Positions 4,271-15,658 of a stretch of DNA of 64,000 nt are shown here, piece by piece. This stretch comes from Deltaproteobacteria bacterium. Its GTDB lineage: Bacteria > Myxococcota > Myxococcia > Myxococcales > 40CM-4-68-19. Position 1 is the stretch's first letter; each line of letters begins with the position of its first letter. A model generated the notes under the pieces. The model saw only the letters and a program-made list of their open reading frames with translations. It ran no database searches and was not told where the DNA came from. The stretch covers positions 62,001-126,000 of the forward strand of contig VBLC01000033.1 of NCBI GenBank assembly GCA_005879315.1. The letters run 5' to 3'. Both the position numbers and the translations under genes were made by a program.

Positions 4271-5818
4271 TCAGAGTCCCTTCAGGATCGTGTCGACGAC
4301 GTCGCCGTACTTGGCGCGGTTGAGCCGCTTGGCCGCCTGGTATTCGCTGCGGGCGCGCTCCGTCTGGGAATTGAGGAAGAGCCCGCCCAGGCGGTAGTGC
4401 GCCTCCGCGTTGTCGGGGTCGAGCCGGATGGCCTGCTCGAGCAGGTCGCGAGCCGTGCCGGTGTCGTTGTTGGCCTGCCAGTCGGCGGCGCGCTGGACGA
4501 GCTCTCGCGCCTTGGCGGTGTCGCGCTCGACCGGAGGCAGCGGTGCAGCGGGAGCAGGAAGCGACGCAGCTGGCGTGCTCGTCGCGACCGGCGGAGCGGG
4601 CGGCGAAGGAGGCGAGGGCCGCGCGCGGATGACCAACATGGCAGCGCACAATCCAGCGATGGCAACGCCGAAGGCAATTGCCGCGCGCTTGCGCTGGAGC
4701 GGCCGCGGCGCGCCGACCACAGGGGCAGAGAGCGCGTCCGACTTGAGCGCGCTGGGATGAGTCGCCGGCGTCACTGTGTGCGGCGTCCCGGCGAAGACGA
4801 AGACGTCGCCGCGCTGCTGCGGCACCTGCAGCAAGAGCTCGCGGAATTCCTCGGCGGTCTGCGGCCGCAGCGCCGGATCCTTCTCCAGCGCGCGGAGGAT
4901 GAGAGACTGCATCGCTTCGCTGATGGGCGCGTCGGGCTTCCGCTGCCGCGGCGGGATGGGCTTCTCGTTGACGTGCTTGGTGAGCACCTCCATCGAGTTC
5001 TGCCCGTCGAAGGGCAGATGGCCGGTCGCCATCTGGTAGAGGATCACGCCCACGGCATAGAGATCGCAGCGCGCGTCGAGCTGCGATCCGGTGGCCTGCT
5101 CCGGTGCCATGTACTGCGGCGTGCCGCAGACGACGTCGTGGCGGGTGAGGCCCGGCATGTCGCTGTCGAGAATCTTGGCGATGCCGAAATCGAGCACCTT
5201 GACGAAGTCGGGCCGGCCGCGCCGCTGCTCGACCATGACGTTCTCGGGCTTCAGGTCGCGGTGGATGACCTTGCTCGCGTGCGCCTCGCCCAGCGCGGCG
5301 AGCACCTGCGCCATGATCTTGCAGAGCCGCTCCTCGGCGAGCGGCCACTCGTCGCGGAGCAGGATGCGCAGATCCTTGCCCTGCACCAGCTCCATGACGA
5401 TGTAGAGCGAGCCGTCGACGTCGCTCTTGCCGAAGTCGAGCACCTGGATGCTGTTCGGGTGGTTCAGCCTGCTGGCGGCCTTGGCCTCTCGCTCGAAGCG
5501 GCCGACCAGCGTCGGGTCCTCGAGCAGCGCCGGCTTGAGCATCTTCAGACAAACCAGGCGATCGAGTGCGAGGTGGCGGGCGCGATAGACCTTGCCCATC
5601 CCGCCTTGGCCGATCAGCTCCTCGATCTTGAATCGCCCCGCGACCGTCTGACCCGACAGCGCATCGCGCGCGGACCGGGGCGGCGCGGTCGCGATGCGCG
5701 CCGGCGTCACCGCGAGCGGCGTGCCGCAGTAGATGCACACCTTGCTGATGCCCGGCGGGAGGACGCGCGCGCAGCGGGGGCAGGTGGCGGACGCTGCCTG
5801 GTCCTTCGGCGCGGGCAT
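4271..5818 (-). CDS. Zinc-ribbon Ser/Thr protein kinase with TM and TPR region
   Basis: A 515-residue Hanks-type kinase. It has an N-terminal zinc ribbon (C13, C16, C28, C31), a glycine loop GQGGMGKV at 70-77, catalytic Lys92, the HRDLKPEN loop at 186-193, DFG at 210-212 and MAPE at 237-240, so it should be active. A single membrane helix lies at about 379-397, followed by a Pro-rich linker and a TPR-like tail (DLLEQAIRLDPDNAEAHYRL) that would be outside the membrane. The ATG was chosen because AAGGAGGAG lies just upstream; longer frames run into the divergent FHA gene. It sits between two zinc-ribbon FHA proteins, its likely partners. Confidence 0.93.
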   Translation of the reverse strand: MPAPKDQAASATCPRCARVLPPGISKVCIYCGTPLAVTPARIATAPPRSARDALSGQTVAGRFKIEELIGQGGMGKVYRARHLALDRLVCLKMLKPALLEDPTLVGRFEREAKAASRLNHPNSIQVLDFGKSDVDGSLYIVMELVQGKDLRILLRDEWPLAEERLCKIMAQVLAALGEAHASKVIHRDLKPENVMVEQRRGRPDFVKVLDFGIAKILDSDMPGLTRHDVVCGTPQYMAPEQATGSQLDARCDLYAVGVILYQMATGHLPFDGQNSMEVLTKHVNEKPIPPRQRKPDAPISEAMQSLILRALEKDPALRPQTAEEFRELLLQVPQQRGDVFVFAGTPHTVTPATHPSALKSDALSAPVVGAPRPLQRKRAAIAFGVAIAGLCAAMLVIRARPSPPSPPAPPVATSTPAASLPAPAAPLPPVERDTAKARELVQRAADWQANNDTGTARDLLEQAIRLDPDNAEAHYRLGGLFLNSQTERARSEYQAAKRLNRAKYGDVVDTILKGL

Positions 5819-5925
5819 GCTCCTCCTTCGAGCTGCGCGAGAGATTCGCACATCGAGCAGGCTTGCACCAACCGCGATTGCGCGCGCCTTGACCCCTCTT
5901 CGCGGCAGGGCATAAAAGCGACGCC

Positions 5926-7056
5926 ATGGATTGCCCCCGCTGCGGCGCGCACAACGAGACCGAGGTCGGCTCGTGCCTTTCCTGCGGGGCTCCGATGGGC
6001 GACGACGAGGCGGTGCCCACCATGATGCAGAAGCCACCGAACACGCCAGTCTCCGCCACCGGGAAGGGGCGGCTGCAGCAGGGCGCTCCGCCCAAGCAGT
6101 GCCCCAACTGCATGACGCTCAACGCGGCGACCTTCAAGTTCTGCGCGCGCTGCGGGACCCCGCTCGGCGCGACGGGGCCGTCCGAGCAACCTGCGCAGCC
6201 CAAGGCGCCCGCAAAGCCCGCCGCGCGACCGGGGGCTGCCGCTGCTCCCGCGATGAAGCCCGCGCCGGCAAGACAATCGGCGCCTGCTGCGCCCGCCAAG
6301 GCGCCCGCGGCTGGAGGCGCGACGAGGCCGCCCACTTCCTCCCGCCCCGCTCCACCGCCTCCGCCGAAGCCCGTCACCGGCATCAACAAGCCGGTCGCGG
6401 CCAAGGCGCCCGCTCCGAGCAAGCCGCGCGCGCGCGTATCGGCCATCGCGCGCGACGGCAGCCGCTCCGCGGATTTCGTCCTCGTCAAAGACGAAACCAA
6501 AGTCGGCCGGGAGGTCGGCGACGGCGACGTGCGGCTCGACAAGGATCCGTTCATCGCCCCCCTGCACGCCGTCTTCAAATTCGAGGGGCAGCAGCTGACG
6601 GTGCTGGACACGGGCAGCCCCAACGGCGTCTTCCTCTGGCTGAAGGAGGGGCAGCTGCAGTCGGGCGACGAGCTGCGCATCGGCCGCCAGCGGCTGCGCA
6701 TCGAGTGGATGCCCGAAGAGCCCGAGCAGCTCGCCGACCAGCCGCTCTGGGGAAGCCCGAACCCCGGCTATGCAGCGCGCGCGGTGCAACTGCTCGAGGG
6801 CGGCGGCGAGGGAGACGTCTTTCCCCTCCGGCCGGGCGAGAACATGGTGGGCCGTGGCACAGGCGACATCAGCTTCCCCCACGACGGATACGTCTCGAGC
6901 AAGCATGCCACCATCGTGGTGGACGAGGGCTCGCTCAAGGTGAAGGATCTGGGCAGCGCCAACGGCACCTTCGTGCGCATCAACGGGCAGGCGCCCGTCA
7001 ACGCCGGAGATCTGCTTCTGGTCGGGGAGCAGATCCTGCGCGTCGATCCCGCCTGA
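5926..7056 (+). CDS. Double zinc-ribbon, double FHA-domain protein
   Basis: A 376-residue protein with two zinc ribbons (C3/C6/C17/C20 and C59/C62/C73/C76), a long Pro/Ala linker and two FHA domains at about 170-262 and 285-375. The second FHA is canonical: GRG, SSKHATI and DLGSANGTF are all present, so it should bind phosphothreonine. The first has GRE but APLH in place of SxxH. It is divergent from the kinase at 5818 and most likely recognises phosphorylated kinase or kinase targets. The paralogue at 2866 lies on the kinase's other side. Confidence 0.88.
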   Translation: MDCPRCGAHNETEVGSCLSCGAPMGDDEAVPTMMQKPPNTPVSATGKGRLQQGAPPKQCPNCMTLNAATFKFCARCGTPLGATGPSEQPAQPKAPAKPAARPGAAAAPAMKPAPARQSAPAAPAKAPAAGGATRPPTSSRPAPPPPPKPVTGINKPVAAKAPAPSKPRARVSAIARDGSRSADFVLVKDETKVGREVGDGDVRLDKDPFIAPLHAVFKFEGQQLTVLDTGSPNGVFLWLKEGQLQSGDELRIGRQRLRIEWMPEEPEQLADQPLWGSPNPGYAARAVQLLEGGGEGDVFPLRPGENMVGRGTGDISFPHDGYVSSKHATIVVDEGSLKVKDLGSANGTFVRINGQAPVNAGDLLLVGEQILRVDPA

Positions 7057-10435: not shown

Positions 10436-10494
10436 GGCTCGCATCAGGCAAGTGACGTACTTCGCCCTTGCTCTCCCATCTATAGAACTTGGAC

Positions 10495-10830
10495 ATGCAC
10501 CCCTGGCTGGCCTCGTTGCGCCACGACCTGGTCAAGCGCGCCCTCTGGCCCGCCCGCGACCTGCGCGACAGCGGCAGCCGCGACGTGGCCGCGCTGCGCC
10601 GCGGTCTCCTCGAGCTGACCGATGCACGTGGCGCGACCATCCCGGCCGTTCAGCTCTGGCAAAGGCGTCGGGCAGGATCGCCCTGCAGCCCGGCCGCTTG
10701 CGACGCCTTCGAAGGCGCGCTGGTCCGCGCCCTCCAGGCGTTGGAGCTGCCTTGGCCGGAGCCGCTCGAGGCAGTCCTCGCCCTGGAGAGCGCTTTCGAG
10801 GCCCTGGCGCGTTCCATGGAAGGGAGATGA
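10495..10830 (+). CDS. Small protein with a histidine-kinase-like H-box motif
   Basis: A 111-residue protein, no named family recognised. Near its N-terminus it reads SLRHDLVKRALWPARDL, with H10, D11 and K14 spaced as in the phospho-acceptor box of histidine kinases; the TPR kinase downstream has a similar VRHDVLKHRAS. A helical, Leu/Ala-rich remainder is compatible with an HPt or dimerisation-only domain. It begins a four-gene unit and ends three bases before the regulator start. A TTG at 10489 is an alternative start; ATG is preferred. A phosphotransfer role is inference. Confidence 0.62.
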   Translation: MHPWLASLRHDLVKRALWPARDLRDSGSRDVAALRRGLLELTDARGATIPAVQLWQRRRAGSPCSPAACDAFEGALVRALQALELPWPEPLEAVLALESAFEALARSMEGR

Positions 10831-10833
10831 CCC

Positions 10834-12519
10834 TTGCCACGCCTGCTCGTCATCGACGATCGCGACCAGACCATCGAGATGTGCCACCGGCACCTCCCGC
10901 AGTTCGACTACGTCACACGCTGCGACCGGCCCCATCCCTGCCAGGTGTGCGACGAGCGCGACAAAGGCTGCCCGCTCAAGTGCGCTCACGACTACTTCGA
11001 GGCGGCCCAGGCGCTCGGCCGCGAGGGCGCGCTGCCCGACCTCGTCGTCCTCGATCTCCACTTCGCGCTTCCCGAAGAGAAGCTGCTTCCGAAAGAGAAG
11101 GAGGGCCTCGAGCTCGAGCAGGCGCGTCGCAAGCAAGGGCTCTACATCCTCGAGAAGCTGCGCAAGGACCATCCGAAGCTGCCGGTGGTGATGCTCACCA
11201 CGACCGATGCCGACATGGGCGAGCGGCCGCAGGACCCGCTCGTCCACTTCTGCGAGAACGAAGTGGTCGACTCGCGGACGCTGGCGGCGGAGATTTCCCG
11301 GGCGCTCACGCTGCAGCACGAGGCGCAGGAAGGGCCGGTCTTCTGGGGTCGCTCTCCCGCGATGGCCGATCTCCGCCGGCAGCTGGCGGTGCTCTCGCGC
11401 TCACCTCTGCCGGTCTTGATCGAGGGCGAGACCGGCACGGGCAAGAGCTTCTTCGCCGAGCACGTGCTCCATCCGCGCTCGGGGGCGAAAGGGCCGCTGG
11501 TGGTCACCGACCTGAGCACGGTGCCTTCGACGTTGATGCCCGCGCATCTCTTCGGCTCTCGGCGCGGCAGCTATACCGGCGCGGTCGAGGATCACGCCGG
11601 CGTGTTCGAGCAGGCCCACGGCGGCACGCTCTTTCTCGACGAAATCGCCAACCTCGATCTCGAGCTGCAGCGCCAGCTCTTGCTGGTGCTCGAGCGCGGG
11701 ACGGTCACGCGGCTGGGAGATTCGCGGCCGCGGCCGGCGGCGCCCAAGCTGGTGGCGGCGACGAATCTCGACCTCGAGCAGCTCTTGCGCGAGGGCCGCT
11801 TCCGCCCGGACCTCTACATGCGGCTCAATCCTTCCACGCGGCTGCGCATCCCGCCCTTGCGGGAGAGGCGGCAGGACTTGTCCGAGCTGGTCCGCTTCGC
11901 CGTCCTCGATGCGCTGCGCTCCGAGCAGCTGCGGCCGCTCGCGCGCGCCTACCTGGCGCGCTTTCCCACTCCCGAGGATTTCCTCGAGGAGAACTGCATT
12001 GTCGCCTTCGGCAAGCCGCAGGCGCGATCGGCGCGCCGCGATGCCTTCTCGGTCTTTCTCTCCCAGAGCGCACTGGCGCGGCTCGCTGCGCATCCCTGGC
12101 GCGGCAACCACCGCGAGCTCAAGCTGCTCGTCACCAACGCGCTGGTCTTCGCTCTCGTGCAGCAGCTGGATGCGCCGGAGCGACCGCGCAGCGAGCGCGC
12201 GCCCGCGGTGCTGGCGATCTCCGATCACCTGATCGATCAGCTGCTCGGCAAGACGCACGCGCCCGGACCCGTCCTCTGCAGCAAAGGCGCTGGCGGCGAG
12301 CGGCGCGTCGAAGTGAGCCTCAAGCCGGCGCAGAGCTTCGCGGAGATCTCCGCCGACGTGGAGCGGCAATATCTGATGGCGCTCTTCCACGCCCACGAGG
12401 GAGATCTCGACGGCATCGCCGCCGAGCTGTTCGGGCCGGGAGCGAATCGGCGCAAGGTGCACCTGCGCATGAACCAGCTCGGGCTGCGGCTGCGCGCGCT
12501 GCGGGGGGAGACGGCGTGA
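10834..12519 (+). CDS. NtrC-type sigma-54 activator with Cys-rich receiver
   Basis: A 561-residue regulator. The N-terminal receiver has the acidic pair D8-D9 and the putative phospho-acceptor D74 (LVVLDLHF), but two insertions: a Cys cluster C30/C36/C39/C46/C50, and a charged segment after D74. The usual receiver Lys is not evident. The central AAA+ domain has Walker A GETGTGKS (198-205), the sigma-54 contact loop as GSYTGA (245-250, normally GAFTGA) and Walker B FLDE (267-270), so it should activate sigma-54 promoters. A Fis-like helix-turn-helix ends the protein. The TTG start is supported by AAGGGAGA upstream. The Cys set could bind metal or an Fe-S cluster (inference). Confidence 0.88.
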   Translation: MPRLLVIDDRDQTIEMCHRHLPQFDYVTRCDRPHPCQVCDERDKGCPLKCAHDYFEAAQALGREGALPDLVVLDLHFALPEEKLLPKEKEGLELEQARRKQGLYILEKLRKDHPKLPVVMLTTTDADMGERPQDPLVHFCENEVVDSRTLAAEISRALTLQHEAQEGPVFWGRSPAMADLRRQLAVLSRSPLPVLIEGETGTGKSFFAEHVLHPRSGAKGPLVVTDLSTVPSTLMPAHLFGSRRGSYTGAVEDHAGVFEQAHGGTLFLDEIANLDLELQRQLLLVLERGTVTRLGDSRPRPAAPKLVAATNLDLEQLLREGRFRPDLYMRLNPSTRLRIPPLRERRQDLSELVRFAVLDALRSEQLRPLARAYLARFPTPEDFLEENCIVAFGKPQARSARRDAFSVFLSQSALARLAAHPWRGNHRELKLLVTNALVFALVQQLDAPERPRSERAPAVLAISDHLIDQLLGKTHAPGPVLCSKGAGGERRVEVSLKPAQSFAEISADVERQYLMALFHAHEGDLDGIAAELFGPGANRRKVHLRMNQLGLRLRALRGETA

Positions 12520-15260
12520 TCGCTCTCTTCGCCGCGCTCCTCGCCGCGGGCGCTTCAGGTCAGTCCTCTGCGCCCTCGTCGCTCGAGCGCTCCTATCGCC
12601 GGGCCATCTCGCTCAAGCCTTCGCGATGGCAGCCCTATGCGAATCTTGCCCAGCTGCTCGCCGAGGCGCCCGACCGCTGGGACCGCGCTGAGGAGATCCT
12701 TGCGCTGCTCCAGCGGGGCCTGGCCTCGGTTCCGGCCGCAGCACAGCCCGCGCTCTCGTTGCGCATCGCCGATTTCGAGCGATCGGTGGGCCGGATCGCG
12801 CAGGCCAAAGCAAGACTGGCGGCCCTGCAGGAAGCGAATCCGCGCAGCGACGTCGCGCGGCGTCTGCGCGAGCTGGCCGATGGCATCGGGGAAGAGGAGC
12901 GCGCGCGAGCGATCGAGGACTGGCCTGAGCCGCAGGTCGCCGAAGCGCCGCGCGCTGCCCTCGCCGCCGCGGAGGCGCGCCTCGAGCAGGGTGATGCGCG
13001 CGAGGCGCTGGCGGCGAGCGAGAAGCTTTGTGCGGAGCAGCCCGCGTGGCGCGGCGCCCGCTGGCTGCGCGCGCGAGCGCTGGAGGCGATGGGTCGCGTC
13101 GACGAAGAGGCGCGCGAGCTGCGCATCCTGACGCAGCTTGCGCCCTCGCATGCGGCGGCCTGGCGCAGGCTGGGAGAGATCCTCGCGCAGCAGGGCGGGC
13201 TCTTCGAAGCCGACCGCGCCGACGAGGCGCTGCGCCAGGCGCTCGCGCTCGAGCCCTCCTCGATCGAGCTGTGGCTCTTGCGCGCGCGCGTCGCCATCCG
13301 GCAGGGGCGCGCGCAGGACGCGCAGCGCGCGCTGGAGCGATTCGAGCGCGCCGGCGGCGCCAGTCCCGAGGTGGCGCGGCTGGTCGCGGTGGCGCGCGCG
13401 CAGGCCGGCCTGGCGGCGACGGCGCAGGAAGAAAGGCCGGCGCTGCAGCCGCGCGAGCCCTCGCAACAGGCGCGCGCTCTCTTCCAGCAGGCGGCGAGCG
13501 CACCTCCCGAAATCGCGCGCCAGCTGCTGCAGGAGGCCGTCGACGACTCGCCTGGCTTCGTCGAGGCGGCCGGGGCGCTCTTTGCGCTCGGCGCCGATGT
13601 CCCGGAGAAGACGGTGCAGGCGCTCGACCAGGACGGCCCTGGACTGCTGGAGCTGGCTGCGCGATTGCGCCGGGCGGGGAGCGGAGCGGCGCTGGTTGCG
13701 CCGTTCCTCGATCGCGCTGTGCAGCTGGGCGCGCCCGAAGCGCTCCATGCGCGCGCGGCACTGCGGCTCGAACAGGGCGACCGCGCCGGCGCGCTCGAGG
13801 ATCTGCTCGCCTACGCGGCCTCGCCGCGGCCGGACCATCTGGAGGAGGCGCGCGCGCTGCGAGCGCAGCTCGTGCCGCCGGCGCGCGACGACGTCTCGGC
13901 GCTGCAGGCGCGGTTGCGGCTCGTGGAGGATCGGCCGGAGGCGGCGCTCGCCGTGCTCGGGGGCCGCTGTACGCCGGGGTCTCCTTCCTCGCGGCTGCTC
14001 GCCCTTGGAGAAGTGCGCGAGTTCTCCGGACAGCTGCGCGAGGCGCTCGAGTGCTACCAGCTGGCCGGCGACGTTGGCCTCCCCCGGCTCGCCCGCGTGG
14101 CGGCGCGCTCTCCGGATGCGCGGGCCGTTCCCGAGTTGCAGCGCGCCGCCGGCCGCGGCGTGCCGGCCGCGCTCTGGGCGCTGGCGCGGATCGATCTCGA
14201 TCAGCGAAAGCCGGACCAGGCGCTGCCGCTCGTCGAACGCTTTCTCGCCACGGCCGGCCCTGACGATCCCGGCCGGGCCGACGCGCGCGCCGCGCGAGAG
14301 CAAATCTTGAAGACCACGACCGCGGCAACCGAGGCGCGGCTGCGAAAGAGGGTCGCGGCCGCTCTCGGCGCAGCGGCGCTGCTCGCCGCGCTCGCCTCTT
14401 CCTTCTGGGGCGGCGCGACGATCGAGCGCGCTCTGCGCCGCGCGCCGCGCCTCTTTCCCACTGCCGCGCGCGCCGCGGCAGAGGTGCGCCACGATGTCCT
14501 CAAGCACAGGGCCAGCGCCCTGGGCATGCTCCCGAGCTGCCGCGCGGATGTAGCTCGTGCCCTGCTTTCGCCCGAGCCGGCCTCGCAGGCAGTGGCGCGC
14601 AGGTACCAGGAGCTGCGCAAGACAGCCCGGGCGCAAGGCGTCTCGCTGCGGCGGCTGTCGCGAGAGCCGGTGTTCGGACCGCTGGTGCGCGATCTCGCCC
14701 GAGCCGAAGATTTGTTGCGCGAGCCTTCGGGCAGCGAGGCCGAGCTGGCGCGCCTCGACGAGCGCCTCCGCCAGCTGCACGCGGCGCGGCTCTCGTCGCT
14801 GCTCCGGCTGGGGCCGCGCACGCGGCTGGACGCGGGCGCGATCGCCGGATGGATCCGCGACGTCGAGGCGGAGATGCGACGCGGCGGGTCCTCCTGGACG
14901 GCGCCGTCCATCCTGCTGCAGGGCATGGAGGTGGAATTCCCGGTCGAGCGCGGCGCGCTGTCGACCATCTTCGCCAACCTCCTGCGCAATGCCCAGGCGG
15001 CGGCCCAGGGCGGCAAGGTCATCGTCAGGCTGGGCGAGGAGCGCGACGCCGCGGGGCGTGACCTGACGGTCCTGCTCGTGGGCGACTCCGCGCCGGGCGG
15101 CATCTCGCTGGAGAGCATCGAGCGGCGCGAGACCGGCCGCGGCCTCGCGCTGGTCCGCGACCTCACCCGCGAGTGGCAGGGGCATCTGGTGGTCCGCTCG
15201 GAGGAGCCGCCCTGGAAGAAGGCCGTCGGCGCCTGCTTCCCCGCGCCGCCCGCGACATGA
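12516..15260 (+). CDS. TPR-repeat sensor histidine kinase
   Basis: A 914-residue protein with GTG start overlapping the regulator stop (GTGA). A signal-like helix (IALFAALLAAGASG) is followed by about 590 residues of TPR-like helical repeats, then a membrane helix at about 613-633. After it come a candidate H-box (VRHDVLKHRAS, H659) and a HATPase domain with N-box FANLLRNAQAA (819-829), a DSAPGG G1 box near 857 and GRGLALV. This predicts extracytoplasmic TPRs that sense a ligand and a cytoplasmic kinase for the adjacent regulator. The kinase domain is diverged, so activity is likely but not certain. Confidence 0.82.
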   Translation: MIALFAALLAAGASGQSSAPSSLERSYRRAISLKPSRWQPYANLAQLLAEAPDRWDRAEEILALLQRGLASVPAAAQPALSLRIADFERSVGRIAQAKARLAALQEANPRSDVARRLRELADGIGEEERARAIEDWPEPQVAEAPRAALAAAEARLEQGDAREALAASEKLCAEQPAWRGARWLRARALEAMGRVDEEARELRILTQLAPSHAAAWRRLGEILAQQGGLFEADRADEALRQALALEPSSIELWLLRARVAIRQGRAQDAQRALERFERAGGASPEVARLVAVARAQAGLAATAQEERPALQPREPSQQARALFQQAASAPPEIARQLLQEAVDDSPGFVEAAGALFALGADVPEKTVQALDQDGPGLLELAARLRRAGSGAALVAPFLDRAVQLGAPEALHARAALRLEQGDRAGALEDLLAYAASPRPDHLEEARALRAQLVPPARDDVSALQARLRLVEDRPEAALAVLGGRCTPGSPSSRLLALGEVREFSGQLREALECYQLAGDVGLPRLARVAARSPDARAVPELQRAAGRGVPAALWALARIDLDQRKPDQALPLVERFLATAGPDDPGRADARAAREQILKTTTAATEARLRKRVAAALGAAALLAALASSFWGGATIERALRRAPRLFPTAARAAAEVRHDVLKHRASALGMLPSCRADVARALLSPEPASQAVARRYQELRKTARAQGVSLRRLSREPVFGPLVRDLARAEDLLREPSGSEAELARLDERLRQLHAARLSSLLRLGPRTRLDAGAIAGWIRDVEAEMRRGGSSWTAPSILLQGMEVEFPVERGALSTIFANLLRNAQAAAQGGKVIVRLGEERDAAGRDLTVLLVGDSAPGGISLESIERRETGRGLALVRDLTREWQGHLVVRSEEPPWKKAVGACFPAPPAT

Positions 15261-15658
15261 ACTTTCTCGTCTGCGAGGACGGCAGCGAGTACACCGAGCG
15301 GTTCCAGCGCTTCCTCGGCGGAGAGTTTCATTTCGCCCGCGCCGGCCATTTCGCCGAGGCGCTCGCGCTTGCACCGCAGGCCGGCGCGCTCTTGCTCGAC
15401 CTCGATTTCCACCGCACGCCGCGCGCGCTTCTCGTCGATGAGAGCGGCGCGCCCGCTGCTGGATGCGCAGAGGTGCAAGGCATCCTTCTCTTGCGGGCGC
15501 TCCGCTCGCGCGGCGTGAGACTGCCGGCGCTGCTCTTCGCCGATCTCGACGATCCGCTGCGCGCGGCGCAGCTGGAAAAAGAGCTGGCGCCCCTGCAGAT
15601 CGTTTCGTCGGCGGAAGGATTGCCGCAGATCGCGGTCCTCTTGAGGAGGGTCGTCTGA
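15257..15658 (+). CDS. Stand-alone divergent receiver protein
   Basis: A 133-residue protein whose ATG overlaps the kinase stop (ATGA). It starts MNFLVCEDGSEYTERFQRFL, with acidic residues E7-D8 after the first strand, and has LLLDLDF with D48 at the phospho-acceptor position. As in the regulator at 10834, an insertion follows this strand before QGILLLRALRSRG. The two receivers therefore share an unusual layout and are probably paralogues. It has no output domain, so it may be a phosphate sink, a relay step or an adaptor (inference). Confidence 0.75.
   Translation: MNFLVCEDGSEYTERFQRFLGGEFHFARAGHFAEALALAPQAGALLLDLDFHRTPRALLVDESGAPAAGCAEVQGILLLRALRSRGVRLPALLFADLDDPLRAAQLEKELAPLQIVSSAEGLPQIAVLLRRVV

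Follow-up and report, generated by a model that had tools for sequence, protein, structure and literature searches.

A conserved cysteine insert and candidate metal site in the receiver of an NtrC-type σ54 activator

Few bacterial signalling domains are more common than the receiver, which is normally taken for a simple phosphate acceptor. Caulobacter FixT is a single-domain receiver that binds an Fe-S cluster through C53, C56, C59 and C64 (CxxCxxCxxxxC). Its authors describe it as the first receiver in which a bound Fe-S cluster was found, and its four-Cys site is missing in its non-Caulobacter relatives (PMC7078487). Titles and abstract openings in open-licence PubMed Central from 2020 on revealed no second Fe-S receiver, and the portions of open-licence PubMed Central that were searched gave none on a σ54 or other transcription activator. 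Fe-S or zinc receivers are likewise absent from the available part of a paper on pseudo-receivers (PMC12632262).

We analysed a stretch of 64,000 nucleotides (hereafter the window, whose positions are used throughout) that encodes an NtrC-type σ54 activator with an unusual receiver.

Cysteine cluster of the activator receiver

The activator and its main features are as follows.

10834–12519, forward strand: cassette gene 2, NtrC-type σ54 activator with a Cys-cluster receiver (561 aa, TTG start)
10921–10983, forward strand: Cys cluster C30-x5-C36-x2-C39-x6-C46-x3-C50, in an insert between β2 and α2
11053–11055, forward strand: D74, the expected phospho-acceptor Asp, at the end of β3
11251–11253, forward strand: C140, the fifth invariant Cys, at the end of β5, adjoining the usual place of the receiver Lys (E141)
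11347–11898, forward strand: AAA+ σ54-interaction domain, with Walker A GETGTGKS and GSYTGA replacing GAFTGA

Translation of 10834–12519 places the Cys residues of the activator at positions 17, 30, 36, 39, 46, 50, 140, 388 and 482. All five residues of the original prediction (C30, C36, C39, C46 and C50) are thus present, and the protein is NtrC-type as proposed, with a receiver fold fused to a σ54 AAA+ domain. Two details need correction: the earlier start at 10924 leaves out C30, and the cluster had been placed in α1, which spans residues 12–20, while the predicted structure puts it in the β2–α2 loop.

The receiver matches solved receivers with Z scores of 11–12 (113–118 aligned residues, 2.4–2.9 Å), and scores 14.8 bits with the PF00072 receiver model, under the cut-off of 30.2. 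An AlphaFold2 model of the activator, built with 12 orthologues, predicts the order β1 (3–7), α1 (12–20), β2 (25–27), α2 (54–63), β3 (70–74), α3 (94–112), β4 (118–121), β5 (137–140) and α5 (147–165); α4 is absent from the predicted receiver structure. The cluster is housed in an insert of about 20 residues, after β2 and before α2, that is modelled poorly (pLDDT 51–55). The acidic pair D8 and D9, the phospho-acceptor D74 and T122 are kept in 14/14 aligned rows, including the row of a homologue that lacks the cluster. The conserved receiver Lys after β5 is missing, with E141 in the window and E, Q, A or D in relatives. Since the other residues are kept and the Lys is lost, the sequence suggests an atypical receiver that is probably still open to phosphorylation.

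The output part of the protein is clear in sequence (Pfam accession PF00158, Sigma54_activat, E 2.7e-50, 170.8 bits against a cut-off of 20.2, residues 172–333) and poor in the full-length model (AAA+ part, mean pLDDT 63; pTM 0.32). The GAFTGA loop occurs in conservative variants, as GSYTGA in the window, GAFTGA in the related genome G158 and GSFTGA in G157. At the C-terminal end, where NtrC-family activators have a Fis-type HTH, AlphaFold2 predicts helices at residues 502–560, and no HTH family matches at E≤1. The same genome encodes RpoN, σ54 itself (PF04552, E 1.8e-62). The AAA+ domain with Walker motifs, the GAFTGA-type loop and RpoN in the genome fit an NtrC-family activator. Viral contigs contained no relatives, and a plasmid search returned ordinary AAA+ matches only, below 60% identity, among the matches listed (5 of 2357 records).

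Among 111 receiver matches in the same genome, Cys residues were counted in the 30 best and make up 20 of 3310 residues. Any 21 residues hold at most one Cys in 29 of these 30 receivers and two in the remaining one. In a simulation of 200,000 domains of 167 aa at that Cys rate, five Cys within 21 residues arose at a frequency of about 1e-5. The cluster therefore exceeds chance expectation and lies far outside what these 30 receivers contain.

Conservation among relatives

Orthologues are present in 9 of the 147 class genomes and, counting strong matches (E 1e-11 or better), in 11 of 195 of the phylum. Genome contigs supplied 12 loci, 7 of them, to judge by the length and position of the contigs, the same records as genomes in the class search; the contig scan used two patterns, one of which contains the Cys motif and so favours Cys-type relatives, while the other does not. 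Counting each genome once, the cluster region is represented in 14 distinct genomes (the window, L019–L030 and G158, also L037).

C30, C36, C39 and C46 (C-x5-C-x2-C-x6-C) are kept in all 14 genomes. C50 is present in 12 (Gly in L025, Ser in L027) and C17 in 8, and the positions flanking the cluster vary. C140 occurs in 13/13 aligned Cys-type rows, and also in the second fragment of G005. The expected co-variation of C30, C36, C39, C46 and C50 thus holds for the first four, with C140 rather than C50 as the fifth. Free variation of the Cys among homologues, the pattern that would have spoken against the prediction, was looked for and not found.

In the more distant homologue of G157, whose receiver is 39% identical, neither the insert nor C140 is present; it has Leu at the 140 position and contains one unrelated Cys near the place of the insert. 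This pattern suggests that C30, C36, C39, C46 and C140 are linked and go together, a different five from those first proposed. G157 is the sole Cys-less relative in the 195 genomes of the phylum, and a survey of 384 relatives, in which part of the candidates per genome was scored, added nothing new; with a single such homologue, the joint loss of C140 and the insert counts as one event only.

At the nucleotide level, the codon differs among 13 relatives at 63 of the 70 columns in which the amino acid is invariant. TGC and TGT are mixed at C36, C39, C46 and C140, and C30 is TGC throughout. Varied codons at invariant columns indicate that the region is coding and under purifying selection. H52 is also kept in 14/14 distinct genomes; since a comparable AHD segment occurs at this point in canonical receivers, H52 may be part of an ordinary start of α2. 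The Cys set is real and unusual, with a conservation pattern typical of a metal site.

Four-gene cassette and divergent σ54-like sites

The activator gene comes second in a conserved cassette of four. A gene for a small helical protein with an HDxxK motif precedes it, and genes for a sensor histidine kinase with a TPR domain and for another receiver (REC2) follow.

10495–10830, forward strand: cassette gene 1, encoding a small protein (111 aa from ATG), all-helical, with HDLVKR near the N-terminus (H10, D11, K14)
12516–15260, forward strand: cassette gene 3, sensor histidine kinase with a TPR domain, an RHDVLKH box and a diverged HATPase
15257–15658, forward strand: cassette gene 4 (REC2), diverged stand-alone receiver that is related to the one in the activator

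The gene 1 protein is predicted by AlphaFold2 to fold into five helices (pLDDT 96), and residues H10, D11, K14, W18, A20, R21 and D22 are invariant in 11/11 aligned sequences. No Pfam or NCBIfam family matches it at E≤1, and no PDB fold at E≤0.001 (best E 0.41). The HDxxK motif is the sole feature that suggests a phosphotransfer protein. It resembles the RHDxxKH box of the cassette kinase. Gene 3 has TPR and HATPase_c matches, the latter under Pfam's cut-off, and a C-terminal kinase region in which RH[DE]xxKH is kept in 10/10 aligned sequences. REC2 has invariant E7, D8 and D48. In 8 of 9 Cys-type rows it also has a Cys beside the acidic pair (VCEDG), absent from the Cys-less G157 cassette, that may share in any redox or metal chemistry of the cluster.

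In a comparison of 13 Cys-type loci, 9 have all four genes in cassette order; contig ends cut off the remaining four, which have the genes that fit. REC2 and the activator's receiver are found in the identical 11 of 195 genomes of the phylum, with no others at that strength. Both are missing from G001, G003 and G004, three genomes of the window's genus (one of them 100% complete), so the presence of the cassette is patchy. G157 has the same four genes in the same order without the Cys cluster, which shows that the core system can exist without it; the G157 gene 1 is related only distantly to the window type (hhalign E 3e-4, probability 40). The cassette contains no Fe-S genes, and is otherwise undescribed in the libraries searched.

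Elsewhere in the window, two frames overlap on opposite strands (5926–7056, forward; 4271–6037, reverse). By eye, one has two CxxC...CxxC zinc-ribbon-like segments and FHA-like sequence, and the other resembles a Ser/Thr kinase with CxxC pairs near its N-terminus.

We identified σ54-like -24/-12 sites 79–148 bp upstream of the gene 1 start, pointing away from the cassette, at 10/10 Cys-type loci outside the window's genus.

L021 7498, L022 7533, L023 2624, L024 2532 and L025 7554, minus strand: divergent σ54-like sites
L026 3516, L027 4304, L028 7483, L029 6169 and L060 480, minus strand: divergent σ54-like sites

In a shuffle test of 15 loci, which included the three that prompted the promoter idea (L023, L025 and L029) and used scoring weights from general knowledge, the site was better than at least 97.5% of 200 shuffles at 8 of the 10 loci. 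Weaker sites were equalled by 7.5% of shuffles at L027 and 14% at L060. The remaining test loci, four of the window's genus and G157, lack such a site. An open frame of at least 90 aa starts at most 30 bp downstream of the divergent site at 9 of the 10 loci, L022 having no clear divergent gene. At most loci the divergent genes encode envelope-type proteins (SPFH/Band 7, DUF2914 or VIT-vWA); Pfam confirmed two SPFH-like frames, one DUF2914 and the vWA, and the other frames are named by resemblance.

In the window's genus, MutS2 lies upstream of the cassette. The window contains fewer σ54 promoter matches than expected (16 against 20.6), and we therefore claim no σ54 promoter there. A search of the window's genome for an SPFH orthologue found none (best E 1.5e-5, 23%). 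At most loci, the gene 1 start codon is preceded, at a distance of a few bases, by a TCTATAGAA-like element that often takes the form of the palindrome TTCTATAGAA (for example L019 7630–7660; in the window near 10478–10487). This element may be the -10 of a promoter for a short-leader transcript, or an operator.

Because the divergent genes encode envelope-type proteins, the cassette may be a switch for envelope stress, comparable to PspF.

A candidate metal centre and its alternatives

The conservation pattern makes it very likely that the activator's receiver binds a Cys-ligated metal. In the explanation we favour, which as a whole we hold to be about evenly balanced between right and wrong, the receiver insert contains a metal centre, somewhat more likely [4Fe-4S] than zinc, that adds a metal or redox input. 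C30, C36, C39 and C46 would be the core ligands, and C140, across the domain, would serve as a further ligand or as a redox partner. The sensor kinase would read the periplasm via its TPR domain and then signal to the activator's receiver, which would control assembly of the AAA+ ring and so turn on σ54 promoters; in other genera, these would include the divergent promoter that faces envelope genes. In receivers, the β2–α2 loop opens to the face that also carries the active site. As C140 lies beside the active site, we infer that an insert reaching C140 would cover the phosphorylation pocket. The metal centre would then share a face with this pocket and could add a response to cytoplasmic redox state, iron or zinc. 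In an extended form of this explanation, which we regard as unlikely in its entirety, the receiver would need two keys: an Fe-S cluster held by the inserted loop and C140 would form a lid over the pocket, and the AAA+ ring would require both an envelope signal from the kinase and the right cytoplasmic redox or iron state.

Fe-S is placed before zinc because of the endonuclease III-like spacing, the fifth invariant Cys and the FixT precedent. The rival that comes closest is a structural zinc on the four Cys that merely holds the inserted loop, with no sensing. The PCQVCEER segment followed by C46 resembles a zinc knuckle. Zinc and Fe-S sites often have motifs in common, and sequence alone does not tell them apart (PMC11138216). 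When a 38-aa Cys peptide was compared with the PDB, the sole matches were zinc fingers, at E 0.023 or worse, with no Fe-S proteins; these matches are not significant, and we take them as chance. The insert alone gave no significant family in Pfam and NCBIfam scans or in a profile search. A purely structural zinc has no need for a fifth invariant Cys on β5 that vanishes with the insert, and the Cys-less G157 homologue shows that the receiver folds without the insert, leaving this reading rather improbable.

Metal-free chemistry fares worse. Disulfides formed within the loop, or linking it to C140, could control dimerisation, as five invariant Cys with one far from the rest might suggest. It is rare, however, for a thiol switch to require four invariant Cys so close together in a pattern that includes CxxC, and C50, the most exposed-looking spare Cys, is dispensable (12/14). 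We therefore consider such a switch decidedly improbable, even though NtrC-type receivers usually dimerise via α4–β5 (PMC12632262) and C140 lies on β5. Least credible of all is a non-sensory, lineage-specific insert, for example a docking surface for the HDxxK protein or REC2, in which the Cys are kept incidentally. The cassette partners match the insert in conservation, and G157 retains the cassette without it, as such an insert would allow. Strict conservation of four Cys positions in 14/14 genomes is unlike a docking surface, and G157 also has relatives of the HDxxK protein and REC2, so docking does not require the insert.

If the receiver binds a cluster, it would represent a second, independent route to a metal sensor in a receiver, through a different loop, and one protein could read both a kinase and a redox signal. 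If the two-key form were true, the protein would be the first σ54 activator with a metal-gated receiver, its cluster a later addition to a four-gene system for envelope stress. G157, with the cassette and no cluster, provides a natural control.

The activator resembles NtrX, NtrC1 and LuxO, its best PDB matches by sequence and fold, in joining a receiver to an AAA+ σ54 domain. It differs in its Cys insert, which none of the 30 best-scoring receivers of the same genome shows, and in having neither the Lys nor a predicted α4. Replacement of a key catalytic residue, the Lys, recalls pseudo-receivers (PMC12632262), but the acidic-pair Asp, phospho-acceptor Asp and Thr are kept, and phosphorylation may still occur. 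The four-Cys [4Fe-4S] motif of endonuclease III and MutY (C-X6-C-X2-C-X5-C; PMC11138216) has a similar spacing, from which the activator is off by one residue at two gaps; a sequence relationship between the two is not detectable. With FixT the activator shares a lineage-restricted four-Cys receiver motif linked to a two-component system. The FixT Cys lie near the usual phosphorylation-site region, whereas the C-x5-C-x2-C-x6-C motif of the activator lies in the β2–α2 loop and is joined by C140. FixT is without an output domain and inhibits its kinase, whereas the window protein is a full σ54 activator (PMC7078487). The window receiver is thus a probable metal-binding receiver of a different design, carried on a full activator.
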